Positions 5,492-31,634 of a stretch of 32,388 nucleotides of DNA are shown here, in pieces; the stretch's first letter is position 1, and every line of letters begins with the position of its first letter. This DNA is from a virus: positions 1-32,388 of the IMG/VR virus record IMGVR_UViG_3300026519_000539. One strand, given 5' to 3'. The position numbers and the translations under genes are program-made. The notes below the pieces were generated by a model that worked only from the letters and a program-made list of their open reading frames with translations, was not told the origin of the DNA and searched no databases.

Positions 5492-5549
5492 CCGCTTCGC
5501 TTCAGTACAGGCCCATAATCTACACTTCGTACACTGCCTTGCTGGTAGG

Positions 5550-15377: not shown

Positions 15378-15760
15378 GGCGTCGGCTCTGTGGCGATGTG
15401 CTTGGTGTGGATGCGGAGGGCTTTGCGGTACGGGTCGGAATAGCGGAACACAGGTTCGTCGCCGGGCGAGAGGACTTCGTAGACGAAGGTGGTCTCGCCG
15501 TCGGTCTCACGGATCTGATCACCGCGTTTGGGTAGCGTCGCTTGTCCGTCAAGCACGAGGTCGGCTCTGCGGATCAGGTAGTCCCGGCTCTCGGTCTTGG
15601 TGACGATGCCGTACTCATCCGCCTGCTCGAAGACGGTCCGCCCGATCGTGGCTTGCACTTCGACCGTGCTCGCACCACGCGCATACGACACCGATCGCGT
15701 CATATGCTGGTGTCGCTGGGCATCGAGCCAGCTCGCGCCTTGTTCGAGCATGTCCGTCAT
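15374..15760 (-). CDS. Head completion/stopper-like protein
   Basis: 128 residues. Begins with a helix (MTDMLEQGASWLDAQRHQHM) then a beta-barrel-like part (VSYARGASTVEVQATIGRTV, SRDYLIRRADLVLDGQATLP, KRGDQIRETDGETTFVYEVL). This arrangement is typical of phage head-tail stopper/completion proteins. The gene follows the decoration protein gene by nine bases, and its stop overlaps the membrane-protein start by ATGA. Confidence 0.7.
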   Translation of the reverse strand: MTDMLEQGASWLDAQRHQHMTRSVSYARGASTVEVQATIGRTVFEQADEYGIVTKTESRDYLIRRADLVLDGQATLPKRGDQIRETDGETTFVYEVLSPGDEPVFRYSDPYRKALRIHTKHIATEPTP

Positions 15761-15769
15761 CGAATCCCC

Positions 15770-16108
15770 TTACTGGCTCATCCGCACGCGCACGGTGGTG
15801 TCGTTGTCGCCCGCCGCGGCGACGCTCCGGCCAATGCGTTTATTGGCACCCGACGCACTGTCCGTCGTCGCCTCACCGGCCGACTCATCCCAGTACACAT
15901 CGAGTCCCTCGGCGATCGCGGTGCTTGCGCCGGTGGCCTTGGGAAAGTCGAAGACACCGGTCACCGCCAACGCGCCCAGCGCGTTCGCTTTGATGTCGAG
16001 CTTGGCGACGCCGACGAGTTCGCCCTGGACGATCACCTCACCCGCGGACACATCAGCTGCGGGTGTGTAGTCGATCGAGTTGCCTTCATGGATGTATGTT
16101 GCTGTCAT
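15770..16108 (-). CDS. DUF2190-type capsid decoration protein
   Basis: 112 residues from ATG 16108 (MTATYIHEGNSIDYTPAADV), chosen because GAGGAG precedes it at good spacing; an in-frame ATG at 16177 would add 23 residues without clear ribosome site. The sequence AGEVIVQGELVGVAKLDIKA and the end KRIGRSVAAAGDNDTTVRVR are typical of DUF2190 proteins, small beta-barrel proteins that decorate or cement the capsid. In related phages this gene directly follows the major capsid gene; here 11 kb separates it from the phage capsid. Confidence 0.85.
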   Translation of the reverse strand: MTATYIHEGNSIDYTPAADVSAGEVIVQGELVGVAKLDIKANALGALAVTGVFDFPKATGASTAIAEGLDVYWDESAGEATTDSASGANKRIGRSVAAAGDNDTTVRVRMSQ

Positions 16109-16187
16109 TGCTGTGTTCTCCTCGTCGATGGGTTCCTTGCCATCGAGTTGTCCGTTGTTTGGAAACTGGGTCATCAATCACCCCGAC

Positions 16188-17984
16188 TTACGCTTCACCC
16201 TTCATGCGGACGCCACCACGGGGCTCCCCGTGCGCGCCCCGAGCGGAGATATCGCGTTCGAGGCAGGCCAGGGCATCGGTGGGCAAGTAGAGCGTGCCGC
16301 GCCTGGCGTGCGGGTCGACTTCGATGCGATCGACGAAGGCGCGGACGAGCCGCCTGGATTCGAGCGTGGCCGAACCTTCTGCAAGGATTGTGTCGATCCG
16401 GCGGAACCGGTCTTCGGCCCACGCGCGCAGGTCCGCCTCGGTGAACGGCACGGGCGACGCCACGCGCTTGCGGGCCAGGTGATCCCGCATGGCGTCGCGG
16501 CGCTTGGTCAGGTCGGCCAGCGTCGCCTTGAGTTCGTCCAGGTCGGTGAAGGCCGGGTCGGCGAGCATGGCGACCATCGCCTTGATGCGGCGACTCAGGG
16601 CGTCGATGTCGCGTTGCGTGGGGCCGGATTCGTCATCGCCGGTGTTTCGGTTCCCGGCCATTGCGGCCTTCACGAACGCGTCCACCGCCTCGGCGGCTCC
16701 GTCGTGGTCGCCCAGAACGATCTCACGGATCTTGCCGACGACGAACGCATCGAGGGCATCGGCCGGGATGTTGGTGCAGACGCAGACGGCCTTCCCGCCC
16801 CGGTTGTACCCGGCGTCGGTGTAGTAGCGATACTTGACACGATCGCCGCCGCTGGTCGAATTGATCTTTTTTTGAAGGAAGTGGTGCCCGCAGTTCGTGC
16901 AGAGGATCAGGCCCGACAGCAGCGATCGCTGAACGGGTTTGGCCAAGCCGCCGAGATCGCGCCGATCCGCGACGGCACGGCGGGCCTTCTCGAATGTCTC
17001 CGGCGACACAATCGGCTCGTGGACGCCCTCGACGACGAACCAGTCTTCCTGAGGATTATGCTTTTCGACCCGGCCGCGCTTGGGCCGGAGCGATCCGTCG
17101 CGGGCCACGCCGTTGATTTTGCCCATCGTCCGCCGGTTCCACGCGATCGCGCCGCGGAAGACGGGGTTGGCCAGGATGCGGCTGATCGTGCTGCTTTGCC
17201 AGTAATGACCGTCCAGCCTCGGCACGCCATCTTCGTTGAGGCGGCGGGCGATGTGGTGGTAGCCATAGCCCGCGATGCACTGCTCGTAGATGCGCCTGAC
17301 GACGGCCACGCGGTCGGGCGAGCTGGGCACGAAGCGCACGATGTCGCTCTTGGCCTTCTTGACGGTTTCGCCGGTGTTCAGGATGCGGATGAGCTTGCCG
17401 TCGGGCCCGAACTCCTGCTTGCGGCCGTCGGGCAGCCAGCGGAAGGTCCGCAGCACCTGGCCTGAGGCGGTGCAGTGCTGCTTGTCGTAGCCGTAGGGCG
17501 GCTTGCCGCCGGGCGCGCAGTGCTTGTCCATGATGTGCGAGATCGTGCCGCGGATGCAATCTCGCGACAGCTTCACGCTGTATTGGCGGGCCTGCCACGA
17601 CTTCACGCCCTGGAGCAGCTCGCCTTCCTCGCCATCGGGTATGCCCTCGGCGCAGAAGATCGCGTCCACCCCGGCGACATGCAGACGGTGCAGGTAGAAG
17701 CCCGTCTCGTTCGTGCCGCCGCGCGAGAAGCGGGAGATGTCGTAGCAGAGGACGGCAGCGAACCCGCCACCGCCCTCCGCATCCGCGATCATCCGCTCGA
17801 ACGCGACCCGGCCCTTGGCGCTGGTGCCGCTGATGGCGTCGTCGATATACCACCGCTCGATGCGGTAGCCGTTCTCCTTGGCCCAGCGCTTGACGAACGC
17901 CTGCTGGTCGGGGATCGACCGCTCCTGCATGTCCGTCGAACGCCGGGCGTAGCCGACGGCCCTGATGGTTCGCTTACGGCTCAT
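16188..17984 (-). CDS. Large serine recombinase (integrase)
   Basis: 598 residues from ATG 17984. The resolvase domain occupies residues 7-150 with catalytic Ser16 in [10 protein letters not shown] and further active-site arginines in SRFSRGG. The recombinase domain (about 160-345) contains [10 protein letters not shown] and the conserved [20 protein letters not shown], then [16 protein letters not shown] zinc ribbon follows (Cys362, Cys365, with Cys401/Cys403), then a coiled-coil region and a C-terminal tail. This is the complete domain set of large serine integrases, which integrate and excise phages and other elements at short att sites. The start overlaps the HARE-HTH gene by ATGA. Its end lies near the proposed element junction. 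Confidence 0.95.
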
Positions 17985-18394
17985 TTGCGGCCCGCCTTCG
18001 CTGCGGTGAACAGGCCGCGATCGACCTTCTTGAAGCGGGCGTCTTTGCCCTTGGCTGCGATCTCGCGGATGATGGCGGCGTAGAGCGTGGCCGATGGCGT
18101 CTTGCCGCTGGTCTGCCACAGGCCCTTGGCGATGGCCTGCTCGACGATCTCCTTGCAGGTCATCGGCTTCTTGGACTTGGCCAGCATTTCGGCAGCGATG
18201 TCGAGGATGCCCTTGCGTTTGGCGGCGGGCTTGGCCTTGGGCTTCGATCCGCCCTTGGCGGCGGGTTTGGCCCGTGTCGCGGCCTTGGCCGTCTTGGCCT
18301 TCGGGGTCGCCTTGGGCGTGCCCTTGGCCTTGGTCGCGGCCGTGGTGGCCCGGGTGGTCTTCTTCGCGGTCTTCTTGGTCGCCTTCGTGGTCAT
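17981..18394 (-). CDS. HARE-HTH protein with histone H1-like basic tail
   Basis: 137 residues from ATG 18394, with AAGGAG seven bases upstream. Residues 1-61 are Lys/Ala/Thr/Pro repeats ([20 protein letters not shown]) like bacterial histone H1-like proteins. Residues 62-131 form a winged helix of the HARE-HTH type ([20 protein letters not shown], then [20 protein letters not shown] and [10 protein letters not shown]). HARE-HTH domains are known next to nucleases and DNA-modifying enzymes and in RNA polymerase delta. Being ATGA-coupled to the serine recombinase it may bind DNA during recombination, possibly as a directionality factor, or shield DNA. This is inference. Confidence 0.85.
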
Positions 18395-18661
18395 GGTGTT
18401 CTCCTTGGAAAAGGCCTCGTTTCGCCCGGCGAACGCCGCCGGATCGAGGCACAGTGAGGCGGCAAGGACGGCCGAAGGCAAGGCATGTCCGCGAGGAATC
18501 TGCGAATGTGGGGAACTTCGCCGCAATGTGGGCAACCGGGCCGACCGGGGCCGAATCCGGTCGCCAAAAGCGGACCGGACAGGCGCACGAAAGTCTGTCT
18601 ATATTGGCTGCTGTTCCCGCACGCCTCACCGGCAAGCCGTCGCCGGGAAGGAACCATCGCC
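18395..18661. other. Non-coding stretch upstream of HARE-HTH/recombinase operon
   Basis: No gene could be supported here. It must contain the promoter for the HARE-HTH/recombinase pair; an AATATAG element on the minus strand around 18598-18606 is a possible -10, without a good -35. Two related words, GCGAATGTGGGGAAC (18502-18516) and GCAATGTGGGCAAC (18523-18536), resemble GCGAATGTCGCCAAG at 18662 and may belong to the repeat field to the right. Confidence 0.5.
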
Positions 18662-18790
18662 GCGAATGTCGCCAAGTTGGCCAACTTGCGCCCCTGCGCA
18701 ACATGCACAACTTTGAACAACTTTGCGCACCTTTGAATCCACGCCCTCGGGTAACTTGCGCATGTTGCGCAAAGTTGCGCTAAGTTGTTC
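18662..18790. repeat. Iteron-like field of direct and inverted repeats next to the RepA-like gene
   Basis: Several repeat types are packed in about 130 bases. A perfect 16-base palindrome CAAGTTGGCCAACTTG is at 18673-18688. CTTTG occurs at 18711, 18721 and 18731, exactly ten bases apart, in the context ACAACTTTG twice then CACCTTTG. On the other side TTGCGC recurs at 18756, 18765 and 18775 with TTGTTC at 18785, again about ten bases apart and in inverted orientation. TGCGCAACATGC (18695-18706) has an exact inverted copy at 18760-18771. Ten-base phasing puts the copies on one face of the helix. This looks like a replication origin, a partition site or an operator bound by the adjacent RepA-like or HARE-HTH protein. 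Confidence 0.75.
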
Positions 18791-20465
18791 AATCTGTTTC
18801 CGGGGCATCTTGCTGCGCATCTTTGAGTTTGCATCGCCACTTACCGCCCTTGCCTTTCTCCTTGTAGATGTCCACGACCGCTTCCTTGGCCCGCCGGAGC
18901 GTGCCCGTGCTGATGTCCCCCGCCTTGGCCGCTTCGGTGAGTTCTGTCGAGAGCATGTCCCCGCCGTGGGCCATCAGCAGGTCGATGACGAACTGGCTCG
19001 CGTCCTCGCGCACCACCGCCTTGCGCCCGCCGTTCATGGCTTCGTCGACCCGCATGTCCACCGGGTCGGGTTCCCAGATCACCCGCGCGGTGTTGCCCGC
19101 CGGTTCGAGCGCGTAGGCCAGGCCGGTCTCGTCTGAGCCGAGGTTGTTCTTGATGGGGACGAACAGACGCCTCCGGCCGGTCTCGTCCTGCTCGTCGCGC
19201 ACCGCGGCCCACACCGCGCGAGCGGCGGCCACGAAGGCCAGCGACCCCATCGCCCGGTAGATCGCCGGCAAAGTGCTGGCCTTGTTGAGATGGGTGACGG
19301 CCAGCAGGGCGACCCGGTGGCGTGAGGCCAACTCAAAGAGCCGCGCGAGCACCGCCCGCACCTCGGCGTTCTTGTGTGAATCGGTCTTGCCCAAGTAGGC
19401 GGTCAGCGGGTCGATCACGACGAGCCTGCAATCGGGCGTCTGCGTGATCGCCGCCTCGAGGGCGACGAGGTCTTCGGTCAGGTCGAAGTCCGTCTCCTGC
19501 GTCTGTCCGGTTGGGATGACGCGACGCACCGCCTGGATCGAGGCGATGCGCGATACATCGGCCTCGGCCGCGTCGAGGCGAGGCCGGATCGTGTCGGCCA
19601 GGTCGTCCTCGGCGTTGAGCAGCACGACCCCGCCCTTGCCGTTGGGCAGCAGCGGCAGGTCCGGCCAAGGCGACCCGCTGGAAACGCGGGCCGCGAGGTC
19701 GAGGGTGACGAAGGATTTGCCCAGCCCCGGATCACCACACAGCAGCGTCAACTTGCCCATGGCGATGCGCCCGGGCCAGAGCCAGCGGATCGACTCGGGC
19801 TGCACATCGCTGAGGCGCACGAGGACCGGGGCCGGTTGGCGGGGCGCTGCGGCTTGAGTTTGTGGTGGCGATGGTGGCTGTGGTCGTTCAGATGCTGGCG
19901 GAAGATCAAGCTCGCCGATACCGGGCAGGGGTGTGAACAAGGCCCACAAGCCGAACACATCAGACCACAGCGAACGGGGCACCTCGCGCCGGTTCAGCGC
20001 TCGTCCGTCCGGCTCCGGCGGGTCGGGCGGCTTGGCGCTACGCCAGTGCAGGTTGATCGGCGTCTCCTCGGCCCACTGCTGCATCACATCGAGCCAGCCG
20101 GGCAGCCCGGCCTTCACACCCGTCGCGCGGGCACGGATGACCTCGTAGGCCCCCTGCATGGCTCCGCGCAGCAGCGCAGCCCGGCGGTCGGTCCAGCGAT
20201 CGGCCCCGGTGCGCCGATGGCCGCCGTAGATGTCGTTGCGGCGGGTGTTCATCCGCTCGGCGAAGTCGGAAGCATCATCGAGGATGCACCTCGCGCACCG
20301 CCTTGCCCCGATGACAAAGCCGACGCGGAAGGCACGCTCGACCTCGGGCGGATTGGCCGGGTCCCAACCGGCGATCCGAACCCCCGGCGGGAGCGCCCGG
20401 ATCAACTCGCCGATGGGGACCGGCCCGTTGAAGCCGCTGTTGTTGGAAGTCGCAGCATCCGTCAT
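18789..20465 (-). CDS. RepA-like AAA ATPase (AAA_25)
   Basis: 558 residues from ATG 20465, which overlaps the previous stop as ATGA. Residues 230-450 form a RecA-like core: Walker A GDPGLGKS at 244-251, Walker B LVVIDPL at about 348-354, and sensor THLNK at 391-395. This is the hexameric helicase/ATPase family of plasmid RepA and phage or satellite replication proteins. The C-terminal 80 residues look like a winged helix (FVIDLLMAHGGDMLSTELTE). The N-terminal 180 residues, including the pair Cys57-x-x-Cys60 and a helical part, are not recognised. The repeat field begins at its stop codon, supporting a replication initiator or origin-loading role. Confidence 0.85.
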   Translation of the reverse strand: MTDAATSNNSGFNGPVPIGELIRALPPGVRIAGWDPANPPEVERAFRVGFVIGARRCARCILDDASDFAERMNTRRNDIYGGHRRTGADRWTDRRAALLRGAMQGAYEVIRARATGVKAGLPGWLDVMQQWAEETPINLHWRSAKPPDPPEPDGRALNRREVPRSLWSDVFGLWALFTPLPGIGELDLPPASERPQPPSPPQTQAAAPRQPAPVLVRLSDVQPESIRWLWPGRIAMGKLTLLCGDPGLGKSFVTLDLAARVSSGSPWPDLPLLPNGKGGVVLLNAEDDLADTIRPRLDAAEADVSRIASIQAVRRVIPTGQTQETDFDLTEDLVALEAAITQTPDCRLVVIDPLTAYLGKTDSHKNAEVRAVLARLFELASRHRVALLAVTHLNKASTLPAIYRAMGSLAFVAAARAVWAAVRDEQDETGRRRLFVPIKNNLGSDETGLAYALEPAGNTARVIWEPDPVDMRVDEAMNGGRKAVVREDASQFVIDLLMAHGGDMLSTELTEAAKAGDISTGTLRRAKEAVVDIYKEKGKGGKWRCKLKDAQQDAPETD

Positions 20466-20659
20466 GCCGCCTCTCCCCGCTCGCGTCGCCACTCGGCCAG
20501 CAGCCAGGCGGTCAGGGCCTCGACCCGCTGATTCCACCGATCTACCGCTTCCACCGTGTGCTCACTATCACGAAGTGAAAGTGAGAAGGGGCGGCCGAAC
20601 TGCACCCGCATCTCGAACTTGCCGACGCGCTCCGTCGCGTCCTTCTTGAGCGTCTCCAT
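20462..20659 (-). CDS. Small hypothetical protein upstream of RepA-like gene
   Basis: 65 residues starting with ATG 20659 (METLKKDATERVGKFEMRVQ), then FGRPFSLSLRDSEHTVEAVD and WLLAEWRRERGEAA. A mixed alpha/beta small protein without recognisable motif. It is ATGA-coupled to the RepA-like ATPase, so a helper or regulator of replication is possible. No family assigned. Confidence 0.65.
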   Translation of the reverse strand: METLKKDATERVGKFEMRVQFGRPFSLSLRDSEHTVEAVDRWNQRVEALTAWLLAEWRRERGEAA

Positions 20660-20805
20660 GCTCTTTCTCCACTGCGATCGCGCAGGCCGACCGGGCGGCC
20701 CTTGCCTTTGTCGTTCCTCTCTGGTGTCGGATGGTTCGTTTGCTGGGTTGCTGGGTTGGTCGGTCGATCAGTTGGCCATCGGAATCATCTGGAAAAGCAG
20801 GCGGC

Positions 20806-20835
20806 GGACCGGCACGCAGGAGAACACGCCGGTCC
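20806..20835 (-). terminator. Possible intrinsic terminator after the second capsid gene
   Basis: GGACCGGC and GCCGGTCC form an eight-base-pair GC hairpin with a 14-base loop, about 20 bases beyond the stop of the second capsid gene. Reading the minus strand, it is followed within ten bases by a short T run (CTTTTCC), so it is a weak candidate. Confidence 0.35.
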
Positions 20836-20853
20836 ACACGCCCGCAGGTCCCC

Positions 20854-22737
20854 TTACGCCTCGCCCTTGGATCGCACCGCCGCACGGGGATCGACCAATG
20901 CAGTGCCGAAGTCGTGATAGACACGCCACGACGCCGCCAGCCGGTTGACATCCTGATCGAGGCCGAAGAACTCGACCGTCGGTGACTGCCTGCCCTGCAA
21001 GAACGCCACGACCATCGCCGCGTTGCTCGGGGCGCTGAACAGATACCAGTGCTTGTCGCTGGCCGCCGACCCGTACTTGGTCGCGTTGTTCAGCCGAGGC
21101 TCGACCTCGATCGAGACCGCACGCCGAAGGCTGTTGCCCGTCGGCTGCTTCTCAGCGATCTGCTGGATGAACTCGCTTTCCAGGATCGCCTTGGCCGTCG
21201 TCTGCAACTCCGGCGGCACCAGCAGCGTCCTCGGGCGCAGATCGAGGTCGTTGCCCTCGGAATCTCTCTGCGTCAACATCGCGGTGATCGCCTGCGCCAA
21301 GGCGTCGATCCCCAGCGCGGTGTCCACCCCTTCGAGCAGGTTGCCGTTGCCCGCCGAGAAGAATCCGCCCGCGTTGGCCAGCAGGACCTCGTAAACCAGA
21401 TCGTTGAGCCGCCGCATCGCCGCCCGCCCGAAGGCCCGAGCGGTGTCATCGAAGACGCCGAGGTCGTCGTTGACCAGATCGCGGCGGTCGATGCTCAGCA
21501 CCTTGCCGAAGGTGTCGATCTTGTAGGTGGCCATCCACTCACTGACGCTGCCGTACTTGAGTTCGCCGCCGGGTGCGACCTGTTGCAAGCTGCCCGTGAA
21601 CGAGGGCCGGATGGCCGTCTGGTCCTTGAAGTCGCCCACGGAACGGACGACCGCGAAGGATCGCCAGGTCGAAGGTGACTCGTTGTAGGCGTCGAGCAGC
21701 ACCTTGTTGGCAACATTGCCCAGCGCCACCGGCAAGCTCGTGGTGCTCAGCGCCGCCTTCACCATCTCCTCTCGACCACGGGGTTCATCCACGCCGTCAA
21801 GACGCAGGGCAGCCCGGCACAGGTCCAGCGCATGCGTCGCCCGGAGACTTTCGCCATGCTCCATTGCCAACGCGCCCAGCGATTGCTCGCCGAGTTCGGC
21901 CAGCCCCATGCGATTGAGCAGCGCCGCCTCGAGCGTGGTCACGCCGCCGACCGACATCTGGTGCCGAACACCAGATACCATGGGTCGAGATTCACGCAGG
22001 ATGTTGAGCACCTGGGCCGTCAGGTCCTTGACCTCGATCTCCCCGGCGATGGCCGCCGCCTTGAGCTCGTCCACCTTCTGCTGGCTCACGCCCCAGGTGC
22101 CGCTCGGCGCGCGGCAGACATTCTCGATCTGTTGCAGCCGGTCGCGCTCATCGGCGCGGATCGCCTGCTCATCAACTTGAACTTCCGTGTTCATTGCAAT
22201 CCCTTCCTTCCGTGCAGCCGCGATGGCGACCGATGTGTTCGCGTCCGCCCCCAACGGCGTGATGCTCACTTCCCGGAGTGTGCCCTTGCGCACCAGCGTA
22301 AATCCGCCCGCCGCCGAGAGCGTCCTTCCATTGACTTCGATGGTTTCGCCGGGCGCGATGCGCTCGTGCTCGATCGGCACGACGCCGACGCTGGCCTGGA
22401 ACTGAAACCCACCCCGCGACATCTCGACGATCTGCCTGGCCGCATCGCCCGCACCCGACAGCACGCCCTCAACGACCAGCTTCCCATCGTTGATTGACGC
22501 CTGGCCGTGCCCGACGACCCCCGACACCCGCGCGTCGTGGTCGGCCAGCAGCGCGATCTGCCCCGACGCATCAAGACCATCGAGGTCGATGGCGACGGGT
22601 CCCCATGACCCGACCGCCATGATCCCCCCGGAGTAGGCAACGACGGAAATCGTCGGCCGCTTGCGATCGGCAGCCGCAGCCTCAATCTCCACGCCCGAGG
22701 CGGTGAAGAGCAGGTCATCCTTGACCAAGGTCGTCAT
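20854..22737 (-). CDS. Second fused prohead protease/major capsid protein
   Basis: 627 residues from ATG 22737, with GGGAGGGG just upstream. The N-terminal ~175 residues are an S78-type prohead protease: His67 in LLADHDARVSG and Ser116 in FQASVG match the catalytic His and Ser of the family. The C-terminal part (from about residue 290) is an HK97-fold capsid protein, with NKVLLDAY, RSVGDFK, VAPGGELKYG, IDRRDLVNDDL and GVDTALGIDALAQA. Nearly every one of these motifs is shared with the phage capsid at 27462-29528, so the two are paralogues, although clearly diverged. There is no portal, terminase or tail gene beside it; its neighbours are a sigma-like protein and a RepA-like ATPase. It could form a capsid of its own or redirect the phage capsid. 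Confidence 0.93.
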   Translation of the reverse strand: MTTLVKDDLLFTASGVEIEAAAADRKRPTISVVAYSGGIMAVGSWGPVAIDLDGLDASGQIALLADHDARVSGVVGHGQASINDGKLVVEGVLSGAGDAARQIVEMSRGGFQFQASVGVVPIEHERIAPGETIEVNGRTLSAAGGFTLVRKGTLREVSITPLGADANTSVAIAAARKEGIAMNTEVQVDEQAIRADERDRLQQIENVCRAPSGTWGVSQQKVDELKAAAIAGEIEVKDLTAQVLNILRESRPMVSGVRHQMSVGGVTTLEAALLNRMGLAELGEQSLGALAMEHGESLRATHALDLCRAALRLDGVDEPRGREEMVKAALSTTSLPVALGNVANKVLLDAYNESPSTWRSFAVVRSVGDFKDQTAIRPSFTGSLQQVAPGGELKYGSVSEWMATYKIDTFGKVLSIDRRDLVNDDLGVFDDTARAFGRAAMRRLNDLVYEVLLANAGGFFSAGNGNLLEGVDTALGIDALAQAITAMLTQRDSEGNDLDLRPRTLLVPPELQTTAKAILESEFIQQIAEKQPTGNSLRRAVSIEVEPRLNNATKYGSAASDKHWYLFSAPSNAAMVVAFLQGRQSPTVEFFGLDQDVNRLAASWRVYHDFGTALVDPRAAVRSKGEA

Positions 22738-23323
22738 AGTCCCCTCCCATCTTGTGCGGATTGAAACCGGCAGCCAGCATCTTCGGCCCCAGCAATCTGA
22801 GCCTGTAGCGAATGGTGCCCTCCCGCACCTTCAACCGTCGGGCCGCCTCGCTGACATTGCCGCCACATTCGATGACCAACCGGCACAGAGCACGGCTTTC
22901 CTCGCTGTCGATGAACTTGAGGATGTCGTCGGTGGTCCAGCCCGACCCCCGCAGGTCGCCAGGCCTGCGAATCCTGATGTAGGTGCGCGGCTTGTTCCCA
23001 TCGTCATCATCGCCGCCATCCGAAACACGGGTCTCCAACTCGTCCAGCTGAACGAAACGGTCGGCGTGTTTCCTGTTCTCGCGTTTGATGTAGTCGATCA
23101 TCGCCCGGTCGATGACCGTGTAGATCAGCGTCGTCTCCTTGGCCCCACGCGAGGAGTCATACCGGGGCGGATTGCTGACCAGTTTCAGCAGCGCTTCCTG
23201 CACCGCGTCGTCATGGTCGATGTGCTTCGGACACCGCTTCTTGGCCAGCTTGTACGCGAACTTCTTCGCGCTCTTGATCAGGTCCGGCGTCAGTTCGAGT
23301 TCGGGTTTCAGGGGGTCCATCAT
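22715..23323 (-). CDS. Sigma-70-like (ECF-type) protein
   Basis: 202 residues from ATG 23323, favoured because GAGGAGG lies nine bases upstream. Residues about 12-85 resemble sigma region 2 (HIDHDDAVQEALLKLV, then TTLIYTVIDRAMIDYIKREN). A Fis-like or region-4-like helix-turn-helix follows at about 150-180 (CGGNVSEAARRLKVREGTIR). Between them is an acidic Asp-rich linker (GGDDDDGNK). It overlaps the second capsid gene by 23 bases and should be cotranscribed with it. It may switch on element or phage late promoters; whether it can replace a sigma factor is unknown. Confidence 0.75.
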   Translation of the reverse strand: MMDPLKPELELTPDLIKSAKKFAYKLAKKRCPKHIDHDDAVQEALLKLVSNPPRYDSSRGAKETTLIYTVIDRAMIDYIKRENRKHADRFVQLDELETRVSDGGDDDDGNKPRTYIRIRRPGDLRGSGWTTDDILKFIDSEESRALCRLVIECGGNVSEAARRLKVREGTIRYRLRLLGPKMLAAGFNPHKMGGDYDDLGQG

Positions 23324-23327
23324 GCAA

Positions 23328-23873
23328 TCAGACCTCCTCGCCGCGCTCGAGCCGCTCCTTGATGTCATCGCACAGCGTGAAGCAGATTTTCGCAGGCTCG
23401 ATGCCGATCAGGTTGCCATCGTCATCGGTCACGCCGCGAGACGGAACCCGGTGCATGACGAAGTACTGGTCGTCCTCGGGCACATGCCGTCCGTACTCCT
23501 TGGACGCACGCTCGGCGGCCTCGCGCAGCGGGCGGAGGAAGTCCGCATACCGGCACCCGAAGGCCTGGCACATCGCGGCGTACGGCACGAAGATCTGAGC
23601 ATCCTCGAAGTGCTCGGCAGCGGCATCCACATCGGCCTGCGTCCACGCATCCCGGTCGGTGGGTTTCACGACACCGTTCTCGATGAGCATCTCGAGCATC
23701 ATCGGCTTGCAGTCGTAGCCGCGCGACCGCAGGTGGTTGGCCGCCGACGCCAGGTTCATCGGGAACATCTGCTCCCGCTCCTGCTCAGCCGCCGCCCGGA
23801 ACGCCGGGTCGCTGCCCGCCGGTGGATTCAGCCGAAGCTCGACATACTCGTCAAAGGACATTCCGATCCGCAT
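23328..23873 (-). CDS. Hypothetical protein, first gene of the capsid-2 operon
   Basis: 181 residues from ATG 23873, with AAGGAG eight bases upstream. Contents: SFDEYVELRLNPPAGSDPAF, then FPMNLASAANHLRSRGYDCK followed by a segment resembling a helix-turn-helix (MLEMLIENGVVKPTDRDAWT, then ADVDAAAEHF), and a C-terminal half with HRVPSRGVTDDDGNLIGIEP. It may bind DNA, for example as a regulator or small terminase-like subunit, but I do not recognise a family. The sigma-like gene follows after four bases. Confidence 0.6.
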   Translation of the reverse strand: MRIGMSFDEYVELRLNPPAGSDPAFRAAAEQEREQMFPMNLASAANHLRSRGYDCKPMMLEMLIENGVVKPTDRDAWTQADVDAAAEHFEDAQIFVPYAAMCQAFGCRYADFLRPLREAAERASKEYGRHVPEDDQYFVMHRVPSRGVTDDDGNLIGIEPAKICFTLCDDIKERLERGEEV

Positions 23874-24279
23874 ACGATGGTCTCCTTGGCAGGGGTTTGT
23901 GACGGGGCAGGCCGAGTGGCCTCCCTATCTCGTTATTCCTCGCCGAGGAGGCGATTCGTAAAGCGGGGAGTAGATTTTTTTCGAGATGCGGCTGTCAGCT
24001 GACCGGGAAGAGGGTTTGAGCAATGCCCTCGATCCATCATCCGTCTGGTGTAAGTCACTACTGCTACCAATTTTGCGGCGAGGTTGCTAGGGCAATGCTG
24101 TCTAGTCGTTCGAAGCATCAGGATCAACTGGCATCTGTTCGCCTCCCGGGACCACCCTGGCCATCCATCTCCCATATCCAGTCGCGATGGGAAACTCCGA
24201 CAATATCCTCTCCAAAAATCAAAGCTTAGCAGACTGGCATCGGTTGGCCTGCGTGACGGCCGTCTGATACACTATCGAC
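23874..24279. other. Divergent intergenic region between capsid-2 operon and PLD nuclease
   Basis: 406 bases without a supportable gene. It should hold promoters for the minus-strand operon and the plus-strand nuclease. Near 23965-23974 there is a run of seven T. A short inverted repeat CCTCG/CGAGG is near 23938-23950. GC content is lower than in the adjacent genes. A possible element boundary could also lie here. Confidence 0.5.
24244..24273 (+). promoter_or_regulatory. Possible promoter of the PLD nuclease gene
   Basis: TTGGCC at 24244-24249 and TACACT at 24268-24273 are separated by 18 bases and lie just before ATG 24280, so the transcript would be leaderless or nearly so. Both hexamers match only about four of six consensus bases. 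Confidence 0.3.
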
Positions 24280-25479
24280 ATGCTTCGCTACCGTGATAGT
24301 GGCACCGGCGGCAATGAAGTCTGTCCTGGTGCGTGGTTCGATGATCATGTCATTGGTGGCATCCGTGCATTTCGCGGGCAGTTCGGATTCTTCCGGTACG
24401 GAGCCATCTCGAAGTATGAGACGATCCTGAAGAAACTCGCCGAGGCGGGCAGCCCAGTGAATCTCGTTCTCGGCTCAAATGTCACGGACCCGTTGACGAT
24501 CGATGATGTTGAGTCGGTCCTCAAGATTACGACGGCCGGGGAGGCGAGCCACCTCACCGTAATTGCATTGCATGGTGCGCTGTTCCACCCGAAGGTGGCC
24601 CATATCGTGCAGGCCGACGACTCTGAGGCCGCAATAATCGGATCAGCCAACTTGACCGTCGCAGCGTTCGGCGCGAATGTCGAAGCGTGGATCGAGGTCG
24701 CATCGGGAACGCCCGAGTCGGATCGAGCCTTGCGGGATATCGTGCGGGCCACAGATTGGTGGCTCACATCTACCGACCCAGGCGTGTTTCAGATCACCAA
24801 CACCGAAGATGCGCGGAAGCTTCTGGCCGATGGAATCGTCGTTGATCGTGCGACCCGGCAACGTCGGGGGGCGACAACGCGCAGAGCTGCCGGGGCAGCG
24901 ACAGGACGCGGCGGCAGACGACGTCGCTGGACAGCCCCGCCCGGCGCTGCTGGCGAAACTATGGAGCGGGAGGGGGAAGTCGCGGAGCCCCCCGTTCCCG
25001 CAGGAACCCCCAGCGCCATCGTCTTGCGCTGGTGCAAGAAGCTGTCAGCATCCGATGCCCTGCAGACTGGTGCCGGAACCAATCCGACAGGGAAGCTGCG
25101 CTTGGGACAGGCCGGCCACAACATTGACCAGAACACATGGTTCCGTCAGCAGCTCTTCGGCGGGCAAAATTGGACGACCGTCGCGCGGGGCGCGAAAAAC
25201 TATGAAGAAGCACATGTGGCGTTCAATGTCCGATTCCCAAGACGGAACTTCGATCGGCAAAACCTGCTTGTTGACCACGCTGCGCACCGCGAAGCTGGCC
25301 AGCACAACATCGTGACGGTGCTCTCTTGGGGCCCGACGCTGGGGAGGTGGCTGCGCGATCACAGTCAGACCGGCAAGTGGGTCATCATCGAACTCGATGA
25401 CCGGGGCGAGTACTGGCTACGCATCCAAAGCGCTGCTCCTACATGGGCTCCGGCTGGGGCGCGAAGACGTCGTCGGTAA
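24280..25479 (+). CDS. PLD-fold restriction endonuclease, NgoFVII/BfiI type
   Basis: 399 residues. The N-terminal half is a single-HKD phospholipase-D nuclease: His103 and Lys105 in LFHPKV, then GSANLT at 121-126 with Asn124. Such enzymes dimerise to form one active site and cut DNA without metal ions. Residues about 185-240 are a basic, Gly/Arg/Pro-rich linker. The C-terminal part (from LRWCKKLSASDALQTGAGTN to the end) matches the B3-like DNA-recognition domain of NgoFVII-type enzymes: TWFRQQLF, QHNIVTVLSWGPTLGRWL and GKWVIIELDDRGEYWL. It is the only plus-strand gene in the region and ends ten bases from the adenine methyltransferase that would protect host DNA. Confidence 0.85.
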   Translation: MLRYRDSGTGGNEVCPGAWFDDHVIGGIRAFRGQFGFFRYGAISKYETILKKLAEAGSPVNLVLGSNVTDPLTIDDVESVLKITTAGEASHLTVIALHGALFHPKVAHIVQADDSEAAIIGSANLTVAAFGANVEAWIEVASGTPESDRALRDIVRATDWWLTSTDPGVFQITNTEDARKLLADGIVVDRATRQRRGATTRRAAGAATGRGGRRRRWTAPPGAAGETMEREGEVAEPPVPAGTPSAIVLRWCKKLSASDALQTGAGTNPTGKLRLGQAGHNIDQNTWFRQQLFGGQNWTTVARGAKNYEEAHVAFNVRFPRRNFDRQNLLVDHAAHREAGQHNIVTVLSWGPTLGRWLRDHSQTGKWVIIELDDRGEYWLRIQSAAPTWAPAGARRRRR

Positions 25480-25489
25480 CGCACACGAC

Positions 25490-27121
25490 TCAATGAGCAT
25501 CCATTCGGCGGTTGATAAGGCGGGCCCTCGCCCTGCACAGAACTGGCAGCAGATCCGAATAGCCTTCTACCTGTTCGCAAAGCGCAGCATCGGTCGTTGA
25601 TACCACGGCCTCTGTCCCGTCGCGCTGCCCGTCACGGGACCGACTCAAGGTGTCCAGTTTTCCCAACAGGGGCGCGGTCGAGACAAGCGGAACGGACAAT
25701 CGAGCAATCTCCGAGGGCACCAATTCGAGTACGCCGCCCCCGTATGTACGCCCCTCGATCTCGGACGACAGCAGCGTAAGCGTATTCTGGAATCCGGAGA
25801 CCAAATCCTTCTCGCGATGAGCAAACATGCTGAGCATCTCCCCTCTATACACCGTGTCAGTTGTAAAGACGCCCGCTTGGTTTAGGAGCAGGCGGTGATA
25901 CTGGTGCGCTCGCTTCGTCATCATGAGACGGCCAGATTTGATCTGCGGCACGCGATACCACGGAGAACGAATCCGGCACTTATACCGCTCGTTCAGTCCG
26001 TCATCCTCGCCCCGAGCCAAGTATTCTCGAACACGTCCTTGACCATTTGGTTTAGGACGATCCGCAGAGAAATCGAGAATCCATGCGCGGCTTCCACGTC
26101 GCCGTGCCTGAGTGTGGTCACTGCGTTTGAAAACGATCCCAGGCGCATCGGATGTGCGTGCGAGTAGTGGACGGGCCCATGGTTCGAGTCCGAACTCAGC
26201 TAGTGTCGAGTCATCGACCGTAAAAAACGGATTCGCCCCGGTGACGATCGAGACTTCTATTCGCGCAATGCTGCCCAGCCGATGCATGCCCTGGAGTCGG
26301 CACGCTTCATTGAACGCGTTGACCTCTTCTGCAGTCAGCAGATATCGTTGCCAGGATTCCGGCGACGCTTGCACCGCGTGCTTCCACTCTACATTGCCAG
26401 ACCGTCGATGCTCGCAGAACATGACGGGTCGCTTGCTTACCTCGCGCTTCGCGCGTACACCGCTTACCACAACGACATCTTGAAGGATGTTTGGAAAGGT
26501 ATTGCGTGGAAACATGTCAACGCGCAATGATGCGAAATCGCGGACCACCGTTGAGCGGAACTGCCCGCCAGAAACAGTGCAGAAGAGTTCTGTCGGCAGC
26601 ACAAGCGCGAATGCACCTCCGGGTCGCAAGAGCGACATGCTGATGAGTGCGAATGAAATCCAGAGGTTTGAGACACCGCGCAGCTCAACGCCGAGTCGTT
26701 GCATCAGTTCCTCGGCTAGCAAGCGATCCTCAGCGTCGACGAATTGGTAACGCACATACGGAGGATTGCCTACAAGCGCATCGAAGCACGGCTGCTGATG
26801 CCGCGCCCACTCAAAGAAGCTGTCATTGACGACTTTTCCACATAGCCCACTTGCTCGCAGCGCACATCTACACTTTGCGGCTTCTGTATCGACCAATTCG
26901 ATCGCGTCCACATGCGCGTCCTGCAGGCTACTACACGACGATCGCAGACGCTCAAGGCCGCGCATGAATGCACCGTCGCCAGCAGACGGCTCCAGCCAAC
27001 GCGACGGCACGGCTGGCTTGGTCAATCGAACCACGCGGTTGAGACACCAATCGACAAGCGGAGCAGCGGTGTAGTACCCCCCGCGGAGTTTGTCGGCATC
27101 GACCTCGTGGATGAGTTTCAT
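25490..27121 (-). CDS. Gamma-class N6-adenine DNA methyltransferase
   Basis: 543 residues. KLRGGYYT at residues 11-18 (motif X), LEPSAGDGAF at 43-52 (motif I, SAM binding) and NPPY at 119-122 (motif IV, catalysis) are in the order of gamma-class enzymes such as M.TaqI and M.PstI. The C-terminal half would hold the target recognition region (PWYRVPQIKSGRLMMTKRAH). It is convergent with the PLD nuclease; together they make a compact restriction-modification pair. The start is ATG 27121 at the edge of a non-coding gap. The gene is somewhat less GC-rich than the phage genes, compatible with separate acquisition. Confidence 0.93.
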   Translation of the reverse strand: MKLIHEVDADKLRGGYYTAAPLVDWCLNRVVRLTKPAVPSRWLEPSAGDGAFMRGLERLRSSCSSLQDAHVDAIELVDTEAAKCRCALRASGLCGKVVNDSFFEWARHQQPCFDALVGNPPYVRYQFVDAEDRLLAEELMQRLGVELRGVSNLWISFALISMSLLRPGGAFALVLPTELFCTVSGGQFRSTVVRDFASLRVDMFPRNTFPNILQDVVVVSGVRAKREVSKRPVMFCEHRRSGNVEWKHAVQASPESWQRYLLTAEEVNAFNEACRLQGMHRLGSIARIEVSIVTGANPFFTVDDSTLAEFGLEPWARPLLARTSDAPGIVFKRSDHTQARRRGSRAWILDFSADRPKPNGQGRVREYLARGEDDGLNERYKCRIRSPWYRVPQIKSGRLMMTKRAHQYHRLLLNQAGVFTTDTVYRGEMLSMFAHREKDLVSGFQNTLTLLSSEIEGRTYGGGVLELVPSEIARLSVPLVSTAPLLGKLDTLSRSRDGQRDGTEAVVSTTDAALCEQVEGYSDLLPVLCRARARLINRRMDAH

Positions 27122-27461
27122 GCGAGTACCCTAATATAATCCAAATCGCTGTTAGGAGGCTTCCTTAATGTCCATCATCTTGTGGACAGCTCGATGGATG
27201 GGGCCAGATGTTGTCAAATGTGAGCGTGCCTCATTGTACGCTTGATCTCCTCGGAAGCCAAGGCGTTGTTGTGCTGCCCCGTAGCTCAGGGCCTACGCCT
27301 CGTCCGCAACGCCCGCCATCCCCCACCGGAACGGGAACTGCCCGGCCTGCCTGTCGCGGACAGACGGCCTCTTGGGCCGCCTCGAGGCCACTGTCGCAGC
27401 TCGGAATCACGCTTTGCGATAGTGCCAACGCGGTCGGGTAGATGCCAACGAGTGCCCACGC
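27122..27461. other. Non-coding gap between methyltransferase and phage capsid; likely element edge
   Basis: 340 bases without a convincing gene. The methyltransferase-proximal third is AT-rich and promoter-like; the rest is GC-rich with a hairpin GGCCTC/GAGGCC (27366-27371, 27384-27389). A word GTAGCTCAG near 27287 recalls a tRNA D-arm but no tRNA can be folded. Because the phage capsid gene ends at 27462, one junction of the inserted element is probably here. Confidence 0.45.
27133..27138 (-). promoter_or_regulatory. Candidate -10 element of the adenine methyltransferase
   Basis: TATATT on the minus strand lies 11 bases before the ATG; five of six bases match TATAAT. No good -35 is seen at 16-18 bases further upstream. 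Confidence 0.35.
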
Positions 27462-29528
27462 TCACGCCCCTGCCACGACTTCCCCCCGGTGCCAGGCGAA
27501 CGGCACAATCTCCACTCGGGTAGCGCACGGCTCTTGAAGAGCACATCCAAAATCGTGGTAGCCGCGCATCTGGATGCCGAGGTTGTTGAAGTCGGCGTCG
27601 GCGCTCTCGACGGTGGGCTGCTGCTGACCGTTGAGGAACGCCACCTCGATCACCGGCATGTCATTGGGATCAGCGAGCAGATACCACGCCTTGGTCGAGT
27701 TGCCGGCGTAGTTGGTGTTGCTCAGGTAGCTCGAACGCACCGGGCGGAACTTGCCCGCATGCGGATTGGCGACCGGGGTCTTCTTCGTCGATGCCGGATC
27801 GCGCAACTCGGTCGAGTTCATGACTTGCGTCGCGGGGACATAGAGCGCGTTGGGCACCAGCAAGATCACCGGCGCGACGGCCAGCGGATGCCCATCAGGA
27901 TCGGTCTGGTCAAGGAACATCGTCTCGGCCTGCGTCAGGGCGTCGATGCCCAAGGCCGTGTCCACACCCTCGGCGTAGTTGTTGTTGCTTGCTTTGAAGA
28001 AAGCCGCGTTGTTGAGGAAGGTGGACCAGAAGACCTCGTTGAGTTTGAGCGCACCGCCACGACCGAGCCGGCGGGGGACAGCGGTGAGTGCATCGAGATC
28101 GTCGTTGATCAGATCGCGCCGATCGATGCCGAACATCCGCCCGTAGGTCTTGGCCTGGTTCGTGTACGCCGTCTCGCCGACGGTCGCGTGCTTGAGTTCG
28201 CCACCGGGTGCGATCTCCTCGTAGACGAATCCGCCGGTGAGTGAATAGCTCGACACCTGCTTGAAGTCCCGCACGGACCGGATCGCCGCGATGTCACGCC
28301 AGGTCGATTCGACCGCATCGAACCCAGCCCGCAGGAACTTGTTGGCGACATTGGAGAGAATCCCCGGCAAGCTCATGGTACTCAAACCAGCCGCCTGCAC
28401 ATCGGCAAAGGCGAACTGGAGCAGCCCTTTGAGGTCACTGCGTCCGTAGCCACGGTAGCCATTGGCCTGGGCGAAGATCAGCAGCGTCTCGCACAGTCCC
28501 AGCCCGTGGCGGTACTGGCGGTTGGCAGCGTCGAGTGTGCGTTCGCTGAACTGGGCTTCGAGTGTTTCGGTTTCCAGCCCGCCTGCCATGCACATCGCGG
28601 CTTCGACGACCGACCCATCGAGACGGTCGTCCTGTCGGCGGGGTCCGCCGATCCCGTTGTAGGAGCGCCCGAGCCGCATGACTTCGAGCTGGTACTTGTC
28701 CGGCTTCCAGCCCGCTTCGAGGGCAGCGTGTGCCAGCTTGCCCAGTTCGTCGGCGAGTTCAGGACGCGACGCGAGCACCTCGGCCGTCATCTCTTGGATG
28801 CGCTGACGGCGTTGTGACTCATTGCGTGCCCGCGTCGTGATCTGGTCAATCTCGGCCGCCGGGTCGCTGGCGGTGATATTGACCGACTTATTCATCGGCG
28901 GGGTTGGTCCGGGCTGGTTCGCTTCGATCGAAGTGGCGCTCTGTGAAGTCGTGGTGTTCTGATCGTTGGGTGTGTCTGGCATCGGTGTGTTCTCCTGCTG
29001 GTGCTGCGCTGCGATGCGGGCACTGGTCTGTTGATCTGCGCCGAGATCGACAAAGCTGATCTCGTTGAGTGTGGTTTTGTGGGCGACATAGATCGGCCCG
29101 GTGAACTTGCGGCTGTTGATCCTCACGGCGACATCGCGCTTGATAAACTCGAGCTCGTCGACCGAAGCCCCGATCGAGGCCTGCCAAGGAAACCCCTTCT
29201 TCCCGCTGGCGACGATTTCTTGAGCCGCGGGCGTATCGCGCGAGACGACACCCTCGGCAAGGAGCTTGCCGTCCTCGATGACGATGCGCTGCGTATGTCC
29301 GACGCCTTCGAGCGCCGAGTGCTGGAAACGCACGGGTCGTTGCTGGGTCGGGATGGTCATGCCGTCGAGATTCACGACGACGGGATAGGCGAAGCCGAGT
29401 GTGCGGATCGGCCCGCCGGTGTAGGCGACCATGCTGAAGCGCGGCAACGCGCCATCGCCCTGCTCGGGCGCAGCCGCTTCGATCGCCACTTCGCAGTTGA
29501 TCGCCAGGATGTCAGGCGTTGTTGTCAT
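27462..29528 (-). CDS. Fused prohead protease/major capsid protein of the phage
   Basis: 688 residues from ATG 29528, preceded by GAGGA; the frame is open upstream into the portal gene, but that part is not protein-like. The N-terminal ~190 residues are an S78-type protease with His70 (VRFQHSALEGVG) and Ser118 (FPWQASIG). A low-complexity linker follows (TPMPDTPNDQNTTTSQ), then an HK97-type capsid domain: NKFLRAGFDAVESTWRDIAA, RSVRDFK, IAPGGELKHA, IDRRDLINDDL, GVDTALGIDALTQA and C-terminal VAFLNGQQQPTVES, YHDFG. It assembles the head shell and matures it by proteolysis. It overlaps the portal gene by 17 bases, as expected for the head operon. Confidence 0.95.
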   Translation of the reverse strand: MTTTPDILAINCEVAIEAAAPEQGDGALPRFSMVAYTGGPIRTLGFAYPVVVNLDGMTIPTQQRPVRFQHSALEGVGHTQRIVIEDGKLLAEGVVSRDTPAAQEIVASGKKGFPWQASIGASVDELEFIKRDVAVRINSRKFTGPIYVAHKTTLNEISFVDLGADQQTSARIAAQHQQENTPMPDTPNDQNTTTSQSATSIEANQPGPTPPMNKSVNITASDPAAEIDQITTRARNESQRRQRIQEMTAEVLASRPELADELGKLAHAALEAGWKPDKYQLEVMRLGRSYNGIGGPRRQDDRLDGSVVEAAMCMAGGLETETLEAQFSERTLDAANRQYRHGLGLCETLLIFAQANGYRGYGRSDLKGLLQFAFADVQAAGLSTMSLPGILSNVANKFLRAGFDAVESTWRDIAAIRSVRDFKQVSSYSLTGGFVYEEIAPGGELKHATVGETAYTNQAKTYGRMFGIDRRDLINDDLDALTAVPRRLGRGGALKLNEVFWSTFLNNAAFFKASNNNYAEGVDTALGIDALTQAETMFLDQTDPDGHPLAVAPVILLVPNALYVPATQVMNSTELRDPASTKKTPVANPHAGKFRPVRSSYLSNTNYAGNSTKAWYLLADPNDMPVIEVAFLNGQQQPTVESADADFNNLGIQMRGYHDFGCALQEPCATRVEIVPFAWHRGEVVAGA

Positions 29529-31035
29529 GATCTGATTCCTCGTCCTCGTTGTTCGTGCCGACTGGAACAGCCGCACCCTGCTGATCCGCAGCATCCGCCG
29601 GCGTGATGCCCAGCGATTCCATCAGCTCGCGTTCCTTGGCGATCTGCCGAAGTTCCGCCTCCCAGTCGAGACCCTGCTTGGCGTATTCACGCGCCAGCGA
29701 TGTCGTGCGGCTGCTCAGTCGCGTGGCCTGCGCGTTGGCTTCCTTGGCCGGGTCCACATGCTCAGTCCCGTCCCAGAACCACTGATGCCCCCCACGAGTG
29801 CGCGACGCATCTCGCATCCGCATCGACTGGGGAAGCAAGCCCTCGACCAGCACCGCTTCATCGAGCCAGGCATCGAAGATGCGATCGAGCACGATGCGCT
29901 CGATGTGTGCCTGCTCGATCCGGATGGATTTGAAGTAGGTTTGGTGGTCAAGTCGACCCGAAGCGTAGTTGTAGCCGCTCGAGTTTCCGGCTGCGACATT
30001 GAACGGCATGTTCAGACACCGGGCGATCTCGTTGAGGATCTCTCGTTTGAAATCGCCATAGGTCGTCGCCGGTTGCTCGGCCTTGAGCTGCGCCATCTTC
30101 CACCCGCCGGGAAGTGTCAGGAGCATCCGCTGTTCGAGCTCGACGGTGTCCATCGGCTCGATCGGGTCGGCCTCGCCGTCGGGTGGAGCGTCGGTCTGCA
30201 GCACACCGGCAAAGTCGGCGGCCGTCTCGGCTGCGCTGATCACGGCGAGCGTGAAACGACGAAGTTGGGCGAACAATGGCAGCGCCGGAGTGATGTCCGG
30301 AATGCCACGCGATTGCCCGGGCCGATCGACACGGAAGTAATGGATGATGACCGACGCATCGATGCGGTCGTAATCGAGGTTGGCCAGCCATCGTTGGTTG
30401 CCCGGGTGCTGCTTGAGGATGTGGTACTCGACCGGATTGCCGAAGTCGTCGAAGACAATGCCGTCGATGGTGTGGGGGGCGCGGGGTTGATTGGTGCGAA
30501 GGTCGGGCGTCGCGACCTGATCGGCTTCAATCAATCGAAGATCGAGCTGCACGCGCGAGGACAGCCGAGGATTCCGGGCCAGGAGCACAAAGCACTCGCC
30601 CGATTCAGCCCGTGCCATTCGCAGCGTCCGGAGCTTGGCAGGCAGATCCGTCGCCCGAGCCCACTGCATGAACGCAGCTTCGATCCGCCGGTCGGCATCA
30701 GCATCACCTGTCAACATCTGCAACCGCGGCCCGGTGCCGATGACATCGTTGGCCAGCGTCAGCACGATCCCGCGTGCGTAGGAGTTGTTGGCGACCTCAT
30801 AGCGGGCGCGATTCCGCAGCACCCGCCGGACCTCCGGGCTCGCAGCCGCGTCGGCGCTGAGCCCATCGGCATTGGCCCAGTGGCGGCGGTTCCCATCCGT
30901 GGTCACCGCCGCGTCGTACCGGGCGCGAAGAGGCTGCAGACTGATCGCCCGTGTGCGTACACCGATTCCACGATCGGCATGTTTGCCTTCACGATGACGC
31001 GGCGTGCGCAGGTTGTGCATCAGTCGCATGAGCAT
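29512..31035 (-). CDS. Phage portal protein, lambda gpB type
   Basis: 507 residues. The N-terminal part has ASPEVRRVLRNRARYEVANN followed by YARGIVLTLANDVIGTGPRL, and the core has MARAESGECFVLLAR and IDASVIIHYFRVDRPGQSRG. Further on come FTLAVISAAETAADFAGVLQ, INPF-like MPFNVAAGNSSGYNYASGRL and the conserved HQTYFKSIRIEQAHIERIVL. These are hallmarks of the lambda-type portal family (PF05136). It forms the dodecameric DNA gate between head and tail. A long C-terminal acidic tail ends ESDHDNNA. It lies between the small gpW-position gene and the protease/capsid gene. Confidence 0.95.
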   Translation of the reverse strand: MLMRLMHNLRTPRHREGKHADRGIGVRTRAISLQPLRARYDAAVTTDGNRRHWANADGLSADAAASPEVRRVLRNRARYEVANNSYARGIVLTLANDVIGTGPRLQMLTGDADADRRIEAAFMQWARATDLPAKLRTLRMARAESGECFVLLARNPRLSSRVQLDLRLIEADQVATPDLRTNQPRAPHTIDGIVFDDFGNPVEYHILKQHPGNQRWLANLDYDRIDASVIIHYFRVDRPGQSRGIPDITPALPLFAQLRRFTLAVISAAETAADFAGVLQTDAPPDGEADPIEPMDTVELEQRMLLTLPGGWKMAQLKAEQPATTYGDFKREILNEIARCLNMPFNVAAGNSSGYNYASGRLDHQTYFKSIRIEQAHIERIVLDRIFDAWLDEAVLVEGLLPQSMRMRDASRTRGGHQWFWDGTEHVDPAKEANAQATRLSSRTTSLAREYAKQGLDWEAELRQIAKERELMESLGITPADAADQQGAAVPVGTNNEDEESDHDNNA

Positions 31036-31448: not shown

Positions 31449-31634
31449 TCACGAAGCCCGTTCGCGCGTCGTGAAGCGTCTACCACAATGACGGCACTCG
31501 CGCCGACGCAGCAGCACACCGCCCGCGAGCCGCTTAAGGTAGAGCACGCGGTGGTGCCCACAGCCGCAGTGCCTGCAGACGATGCCGACGGGTTGCCCGT
31601 CCTTGTTCTGGATGGTCTGCTTCACGCGAGGCAT
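31449..31634 (-). CDS. NrdR-like zinc-ribbon mini-protein
   Basis: 61 residues from ATG 31634, which shares its A with the terminase stop (TGATG). Two CxxC knuckles are visible: CRHCG near residues 20-24 and CRHCG near 47-51, with a basic linker RRRE and ending RRFTTRERAS. This is strikingly like the N-terminal zinc ribbon of NrdR (RRRECxxCxxRFTTxER), without the ATP-cone domain. Such stand-alone ribbons may bind DNA, like Ogr/Delta late activators, or nucleic acid in the terminase complex. Function is inferred. Confidence 0.75.
   Translation of the reverse strand: MPRVKQTIQNKDGQPVGIVCRHCGCGHHRVLYLKRLAGGVLLRRRECRHCGRRFTTRERAS

Follow-up and report, generated by a model that had tools for sequence, protein, structure and literature searches.

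A probable helper-embedded phage satellite with a large serine recombinase and its own capsid gene inside the capsid gene of a phage

The stretch of DNA analysed here (the window) is the IMG/VR record IMGVR_UViG_3300026519_000539, a viral record of 32,388 bases and a contig of metagenome type, in which an element of about 11.3 kb with its own protease/capsid gene lies within the late genes of a phage from planctomycete-type hosts. We suggest that this element is a helper-embedded phage satellite, a reading to which we assign a probability of about 0.83. It rests on sequence comparisons, which show site-specific integration, empty sites in related phages, a family of elements with target tropism, a conserved and constrained capsid and, in several members, a variable restriction-modification (R-M) cargo. 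An earlier note, made from the letters of the window alone, had already proposed a satellite sitting inside its putative helper; the empty sites, the attachment (att) sites and the recurrence of the family at other loci support that interpretation well, helper-embedded position included.

Ends of the element and empty sites

The late genes of the phage, on the minus strand, run from a terminase with a GpA-type nuclease domain through a lambda-family portal and a protease/capsid fusion to the insert, which is followed by the DUF2190 cement gene and the tail genes. The earlier note had placed the insert between the capsid and decoration genes; an 11.3-kb insert is indeed there, but its true ends (16225/16226 and 27532/27533) put it inside the 3' end of the phage capsid gene rather than at the capsid/DUF2190 junction. 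In insert-free relatives (designated by L numbers, genomes by G numbers) the capsid ends in ..QEPRGGVxxKGEA (x, variable), and in the window this ending lies 11.3 kb downstream, in frame with the open reading frame (ORF) of the recombinase. The interrupted capsid ORF now terminates in ..QEPCATRVEIVPFAWHRGEVVAGA, and its final 23 codons, as annotated, are element DNA. The uninterrupted junction that the earlier note had advised looking for is present in L018, L019, L020, L024 and L098-L102, in which DUF2190 directly follows the capsid gene; the best empty site is that of L261, from the metagenome-assembled genome (MAG) G001, whose flanks share 86-90% DNA identity with the window helper and are continuous across the site. 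These empty sites rule out that the insert is core phage genome or the product of an operon rearrangement.

The att sites could be defined as well. Joining the inner halves of the two junctions restores the capsid reading frame exactly, and the predicted attB of the uninterrupted capsid gene reads CTTCAA-GA-GCCCCGTGG; joining the outer halves gives the predicted attP of the excised circle, CGCACGGG-GA-GCCGTGCG, with near-palindromic arms (18/22) centred on the GA. A base-exact GA core and palindromic attP were mapped in six elements between 10.1 and 11.3 kb long, and joining the flanks of these restores the reading frame of the host gene exactly. The window element has the three-domain recombinase, the near-palindromic attP and the 2-bp crossover core of large serine recombinase elements. 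The automatic palindrome search gave no result for L190, L192, L195 and the tRNA-type elements, some ends were set from the split host gene, and the left end of L248 was looked for and not found.

The recombinase ORF of the window has no stop codon within the element and continues in frame through the 12 codons that end the phage capsid gene. The recombinase ORFs of all six fully mapped elements lack a stop codon of their own and, in the circular form, would close with a conserved [ST]R.....F.W..G tail. Since the GA occupies codon positions 1-2 in all six fully mapped sense insertions, recombinase and helper protein swap their C-termini in frame. We can speculate that this tail swap acts as a switch.

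A related trace was observed in L021 (1118-3202 and downstream), where the capsid ORF of a related phage ends with the left end of the element (..EPRATRVEIVPVAWHRGGVMAV, then a stop) and the rest of the element has gone together with several head genes; it looks like the scar of a deleted insertion at the capsid site of the window.

Every gene named in the earlier note (the DUF2190 decoration gene, the full-length serine recombinase, the RepA-like ATPase by a repeat field, the sigma-like protein and the protease/capsid gene) is present (Table 1), and an R-M pair, which it had not named, fills the first 3.6 kb of the insert. Portal, terminase and tail genes of helper type were not found inside the mapped elements. 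The repeat field is a possible replication origin. As for the conserved 181-aa protein, we infer that it is a regulator or a directionality factor: its AlphaFold model has a pLDDT of 90.7 and re-aligns with MerR entries at Z 4.5-5.9 (Z below 8 being weak), and a Foldseek search against the PDB gave no significant match (best E 0.18). A lone copy of this protein, 65% identical, lies beside phage tail genes in L176 (5785-6327), where the rest of the element is absent.

Two further regions were noticed in the remainder of the window. A Ser/Gly-rich protein of 447 aa (5550-6893) has no Pfam match, and part of it looks like a Hint/intein-type motif (NCLLFGTLVHV..); it is kept at the equivalent position in related phages, at 50-60% across the portion that aligns. 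Beyond the tail genes (1202-5491) lie a SNF2-type helicase, a small HTH_17 gene and a DUF4357 protein, possibly defence cargo or host flank.

Table 1. Features of the element and of the interrupted phage in the window
Feature	Positions	Strand	Evidence or remark
Whole integrated element	16225..27533	-	left end 27533, right end 16225; 11,307 bp plus duplicated core dinucleotide; from relatives' junctions, attP palindrome, GA core and L261 empty site
attL core GA	27532..27533	-	phage capsid CTTCAA-GA-GCCGTGCGC
attR core GA	16225..16226	-	GCGCACGGG-GA-GCCCCGTGG
Element left end	27462..27531	-	encodes recombinase C-terminal tail of the excised circle (ATRVEIVPFAWHRGEVVAGA); now appended to phage capsid ORF
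Type II DNA methyltransferase, M.Eco57I type, cargo	25490..27121	-	PF22837 1.6e-38; PADLOC MTase_II 1.3e-116
Phospholipase D (PLD)-fold nuclease, NgoFVII-like, cargo, probable restriction partner	24280..25479	+	PF09565 8.7e-06
181-aa conserved element protein	23328..23873	-	MerR-like winged helix, residues 36-95; 67% identical in L004, 92% in L189
Sigma-70 region 2 protein with C-terminal helix-turn-helix	22715..23323	-	PF04542 1.8e-15; conserved in family
Satellite head-maturation protease/major capsid fusion, 627 aa	20854..22737	-	phrog_4523 4.9e-77; PF25209 9e-43
65-aa conserved protein	20462..20659	-	in most family members; no Pfam match
RepA-like AAA_25 ATPase, probable replication protein	18789..20462	-	PF13481 1.3e-42
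Repeat field	18662..18827 (about)		direct 14-mers at 10-nt spacing; inverted arms of 23-26 nt
HARE-HTH protein	17981..18535	-	PF05066 4.1e-15
Large serine recombinase	16188..17984	-	full-length: Resolvase, Recombinase, Zn ribbon
Detached end codons of phage capsid gene	16188..16226	-	12 codons; ending identical in L019, 1-2 residues different in L018/L020
Phage cement protein DUF2190	15770..16114	-	PF09956 2e-25
Helper protease/capsid gene, interrupted	27462..29594	-	phage-derived DNA 27534-29594
Helper portal, lambda family	29512..31035	-	PF05136 2.8e-61
Helper terminase large subunit, C-terminal nuclease part	31634..32326	-	PF20454 1.7e-17; remainder off contig

Relatives in phage genes and at bacterial sites

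The same gene set, which the earlier note had advised looking for at other loci, recurs both within further phage genes and in bacterial chromosomes, there at tRNA/ssrA sites. The conserved order is MerR-like regulator, sigma-like protein, capsid, 65-aa protein, ATPase and serine recombinase, to which a HARE-HTH gene is added. A viral contig of 36 kb, L004 (its element is also found in L003, L175 and L187), harbors the six genes in the order of the window inside a tail-tube gene, its own capsid-DUF2190 junction being uninterrupted; the cargo is a different methylase and an Mrr-type nuclease. The L196 element occupies a tail-tube site too, and those of L184 and L253 (10,066 bp, GA core) a tape-measure gene. 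In L177, L180, L182, L186 and L188 the target is the terminase large subunit (TerL), the flanks holding its residues up to 296 and from 296 onward; residue 296 is the first Asp of the Walker B motif.

Other capsid genes are targeted as well. The elements of L190, L192, L243, L245 and L252 lie antisense in an SU10-type capsid gene adjoining an SPP1-type portal, at the codon following HEW(L/I)E (the L190 target matches PF17236 SU10_MCP at 1.7e-72, its portal PF05133); that of L248 lies in sense orientation near the end of an SU10-type capsid gene, and that of L183 antisense, mid-gene, in the capsid of a lambda-portal-type helper. The left ends of L179 and L194, the only ends available for these two, lie in a phage-like DNA methyltransferase gene and a phage-like primase gene, respectively; the phage-gene targets of L179, L194 and L247 were named from translations, without family search. 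Element and interrupted gene run in the same direction in the TerL group, L004, L184 and the window, and in opposite directions in L190, L192, L243, L245, L252 and L183.

An R-M cargo is present in at least five elements, with differing enzymes; the cargo of L190 (7111-8937) has trypsin-like and beta-flower domains with a weak likeness to RT-protease defence proteins. In L192 there are two satellite recombinases (3429-5642 and 15170-19385), and the parts of a split portal gene lie on either side, one on each strand, which is probably the outcome of two insertions and an inversion. In L195 (6606-12809) a degraded satellite has its capsid cut at about residue 498 and joined to a recombinase without its N-terminus.

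The elements at bacterial sites differ in their integration genes. Those of L189, L241, L250 and L265 (the L193 element) have a different serine recombinase and end at tRNA-Met or tRNA-Pro; L198, with the recombinase type of the tRNA elements, ends in a similar tRNA-like sequence where no tRNA was called, and L246 (with L242) has a tyrosine integrase beside the tmRNA gene (ssrA). Primase-like ORFs occur in L198 and L246. The closest relative of the window element is L189 (capsid 94%, 181-aa protein 92% and ATPase 81% identity), and yet it carries another recombinase, along with a diverged sigma-like gene; the integration module is therefore exchangeable. The recombinase tree divides the phage-gene type from the tRNA type with full support; in it every target site represented by more than one row forms one clade, and the nine changes of target label are the minimum.

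The satellite capsid and the alternative readings

Satellite-type capsids, counted at a cut-off of about 51% identity among 397 genomes of the sampled class (Phycisphaerae MAGs), occur in about 22 of them. In a quick tree, 15 satellite capsids form one clade as against 60 helper capsids (SH-aLRT 100; stem of 1.6 changes per site), and the two capsids of the window are distant relatives placed on opposite sides of one fully supported branch; the tree rules out that the second capsid is a duplicate of the phage's own. The satellite capsid of the window is under purifying selection as strong as that on the helper capsid, the ratio of nonsynonymous to synonymous substitution rates (dN/dS) being 0.092 for the former (window versus L189) and 0.098 for the latter (window versus L261).

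More distant capsid matches (about 37-41% identity) were kept out of the count. Those of L258-L260 are ordinary-looking phage capsids beside phage genes. In L255, L256 and L257 the distant capsid (about 41% identity) is followed by a satellite-like AAA gene, with tRNA genes on the same stretch, and these three are possibly a second satellite lineage.

The varied R-M enzymes, the breaking of essential helper genes by the insertions and the presence of a capsid without portal or terminase would all fit a different idea, i.e., a mobile defence island that lands in phage genes and is not packaged, whose capsid protein would act as a decoy and disrupt the assembly of helper heads, while the R-M pair would keep other phages out. 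We consider this unlikely. Indeed, a complete protease/major capsid fusion, as constrained as the helper capsid, was found wherever the contig includes the capsid region of the element, whereas a decoy would have no need of a retained protease domain. Much less probable still is a second prophage that came to lie within the first by chance and of which a remnant is left. The recombinase, sigma-like and capsid genes do resemble those of phages, but they belong to a compact set of 10-11 kb that keeps a constant order and recurs at many phage and tRNA/ssrA sites without portal, TerL or tail genes of helper type. The metagenome-type contig might also suggest an assembly chimera, an internal phage duplication or a part of the core phage genome, the least credible explanation of all given the exact att structure, the empty sites and the finding of homologous insertions in chromosomal contigs that are 3.8 Mb (G173, L245) and 0.68 Mb (L190) long.

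Concerning the link between satellite and helper, the MAG G001 contains both a sister satellite at tRNA-Met (capsid 94%) and, on a separate contig, the intact and near-identical helper L261. The helper portal is also commoner where satellites occur: 14 of the 22 satellite genomes have it, as against 80 of the remaining 375 (Fisher p = 4e-5). Among the blastn matches listed between satellites and helpers, the DNA shared recurrently is that of the capsid and HARE-HTH genes, the latter lying in helpers about 1.5-2.5 kb upstream of TerL; for the Escherichia coli element 11capE, the region shared with the helper is a putative cos site (PMC10111431).

Some points weigh against the helper-embedded satellite that we favour. 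The co-occurrence counts for the helper portal come from incomplete MAGs, are uncorrected for shared ancestry and include satellites that sit in that very helper. No cos or pac site was identified. The degraded L195, one phage-type recombinase copy, has its right end in a gene that is not phage-like. Excision, packaging and transfer have not been observed. Moreover, an essential role of the satellite capsid cannot be taken as given, because the capsid gene of E. coli phage-inducible chromosomal islands (PICIs) is dispensable for transfer, according to earlier work cited in PMC10111431.

Proposed life cycle and comparison with known satellites

The junctions show that the large serine recombinase inserts the circular 11.3-kb element at a GA within an essential helper gene, trading its own tail for the end codons of the capsid, which in turn gains the recombinase tail. 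The integrated state alters or breaks the helper gene, so that full helper function should require excision of the satellite. Upon helper induction, the sigma-like and MerR-like proteins and the ATPase might switch on, excise and replicate the satellite, the ATPase probably acting at the repeat field for replication; its own protease/capsid, combined with the portal, terminase and tail of the helper, would then yield particles full of satellite DNA. Packaging by the helper and use of the satellite capsid are in this sense predictions. To judge from the gene families, the variable R-M cargo may protect the host from other phages. A bolder and quite tentative extension is that helper-embedded satellites with serine recombinases arose independently, that they always bring a dedicated and essential capsid lineage using helper portal, terminase and tail, and that the tail swap is a switch, acting on recombinase stability or direction, by which excision depends on whether the helper gene is intact or interrupted.

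In the general sense, a phage satellite is an element that is no phage itself and yet has functions or signals promoting its packaging into particles built entirely or partly by one. In this family, the satellite's own capsid, the lack of portal, terminase and tail genes and the co-occurrence with helpers bear on that definition, with packaging as the predicted part. Satellites such as P4, SaPIs and PLEs remodel the helper capsid by a scaffold and bring no full capsid, unlike the window element, which encodes one. They resemble it in being small, in the tRNA-type sites used by part of the family and, presumably, in helper-dependent late functions (for PLE, PMC10945586). A satellite-encoded capsid and maturation protease is shared with the capsid-forming PICIs (cf-PICIs) and with the Streptomyces satellites MulchRoom and MiniFlayer (PMC10690885); however, cf-PICIs add portal, connectors and both terminase subunits, whereas the window element has the protease-capsid fusion only. 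Virophages integrated in giant viruses (PMC10906902) are likewise capsid-coding parasites within a helper virus genome, but their genes, hosts and integrases are unrelated.

The closest parallel is offered by the helper-embedded PICIs (HE-PICIs) of Enterobacteriaceae (Tommasini et al. 2023, PMC10111431), one of which is E. coli 11capE, integrated in prophage 50icd. They, too, are about 11 kb long, reside inside an essential prophage late gene (capsid, terminase, portal or tail) and have relatives at chromosomal sites, and their integrases form one clade with subclades that follow the target sites (PMC10111431), as the recombinases of the window family do. Co-orientation with the interrupted late gene, another HE-PICI trait, is seen in part of the window family. 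Since 11capE carries a capsid gene while inside the capsid gene of its helper (PMC10111431), the earlier note's view that an element with only a capsid gene in the late operon of its helper would be unusual has to be tempered, HE-PICIs with capsid genes having already been published. Nevertheless, the window element is not a member of the HE-PICIs, because their integrase, AlpA and primase features are lacking: it has a large serine recombinase instead of the tyrosine integrase of the HE-PICI clade, its scanned proteins gave no match to AlpA (the HE-PICI regulator) or HTH_17, in place of which the MerR-like 181-aa protein may act, and no PICI primase (Pox_D5, Prim-Pol and similar) was found in it, only AAA_25. 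Its own traits are an attP that spans the 3' end of the recombinase, the sigma-like and MerR-like genes, the AAA_25 ATPase and the R-M cargo; the family as a whole differs in its occurrence in Phycisphaerae MAGs and in its antisense insertions in SU10-type capsid genes. Within the paper library searched, we found no report of phage satellites in Planctomycetota. In lifestyle the window element resembles the HE-PICIs, but its family is unrelated to them by integrase, gene set and host.

The helper-embedded satellites described so far belong to one tyrosine-integrase clade of Enterobacteriaceae. That a lineage with serine recombinases, unrelated to these and found in Phycisphaerae, repeatedly inserts into TerL, capsid, tail-tube and tape-measure genes argues that holding an essential helper gene hostage is a strategy reached by convergence. 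Owing to the defined att sites, the conserved clade of satellite capsids and the MAGs with both helper and satellite, the family is directly testable. It also serves as a caution that apparently truncated capsid or terminase genes of viral metagenomes may be genes into which a satellite has inserted.

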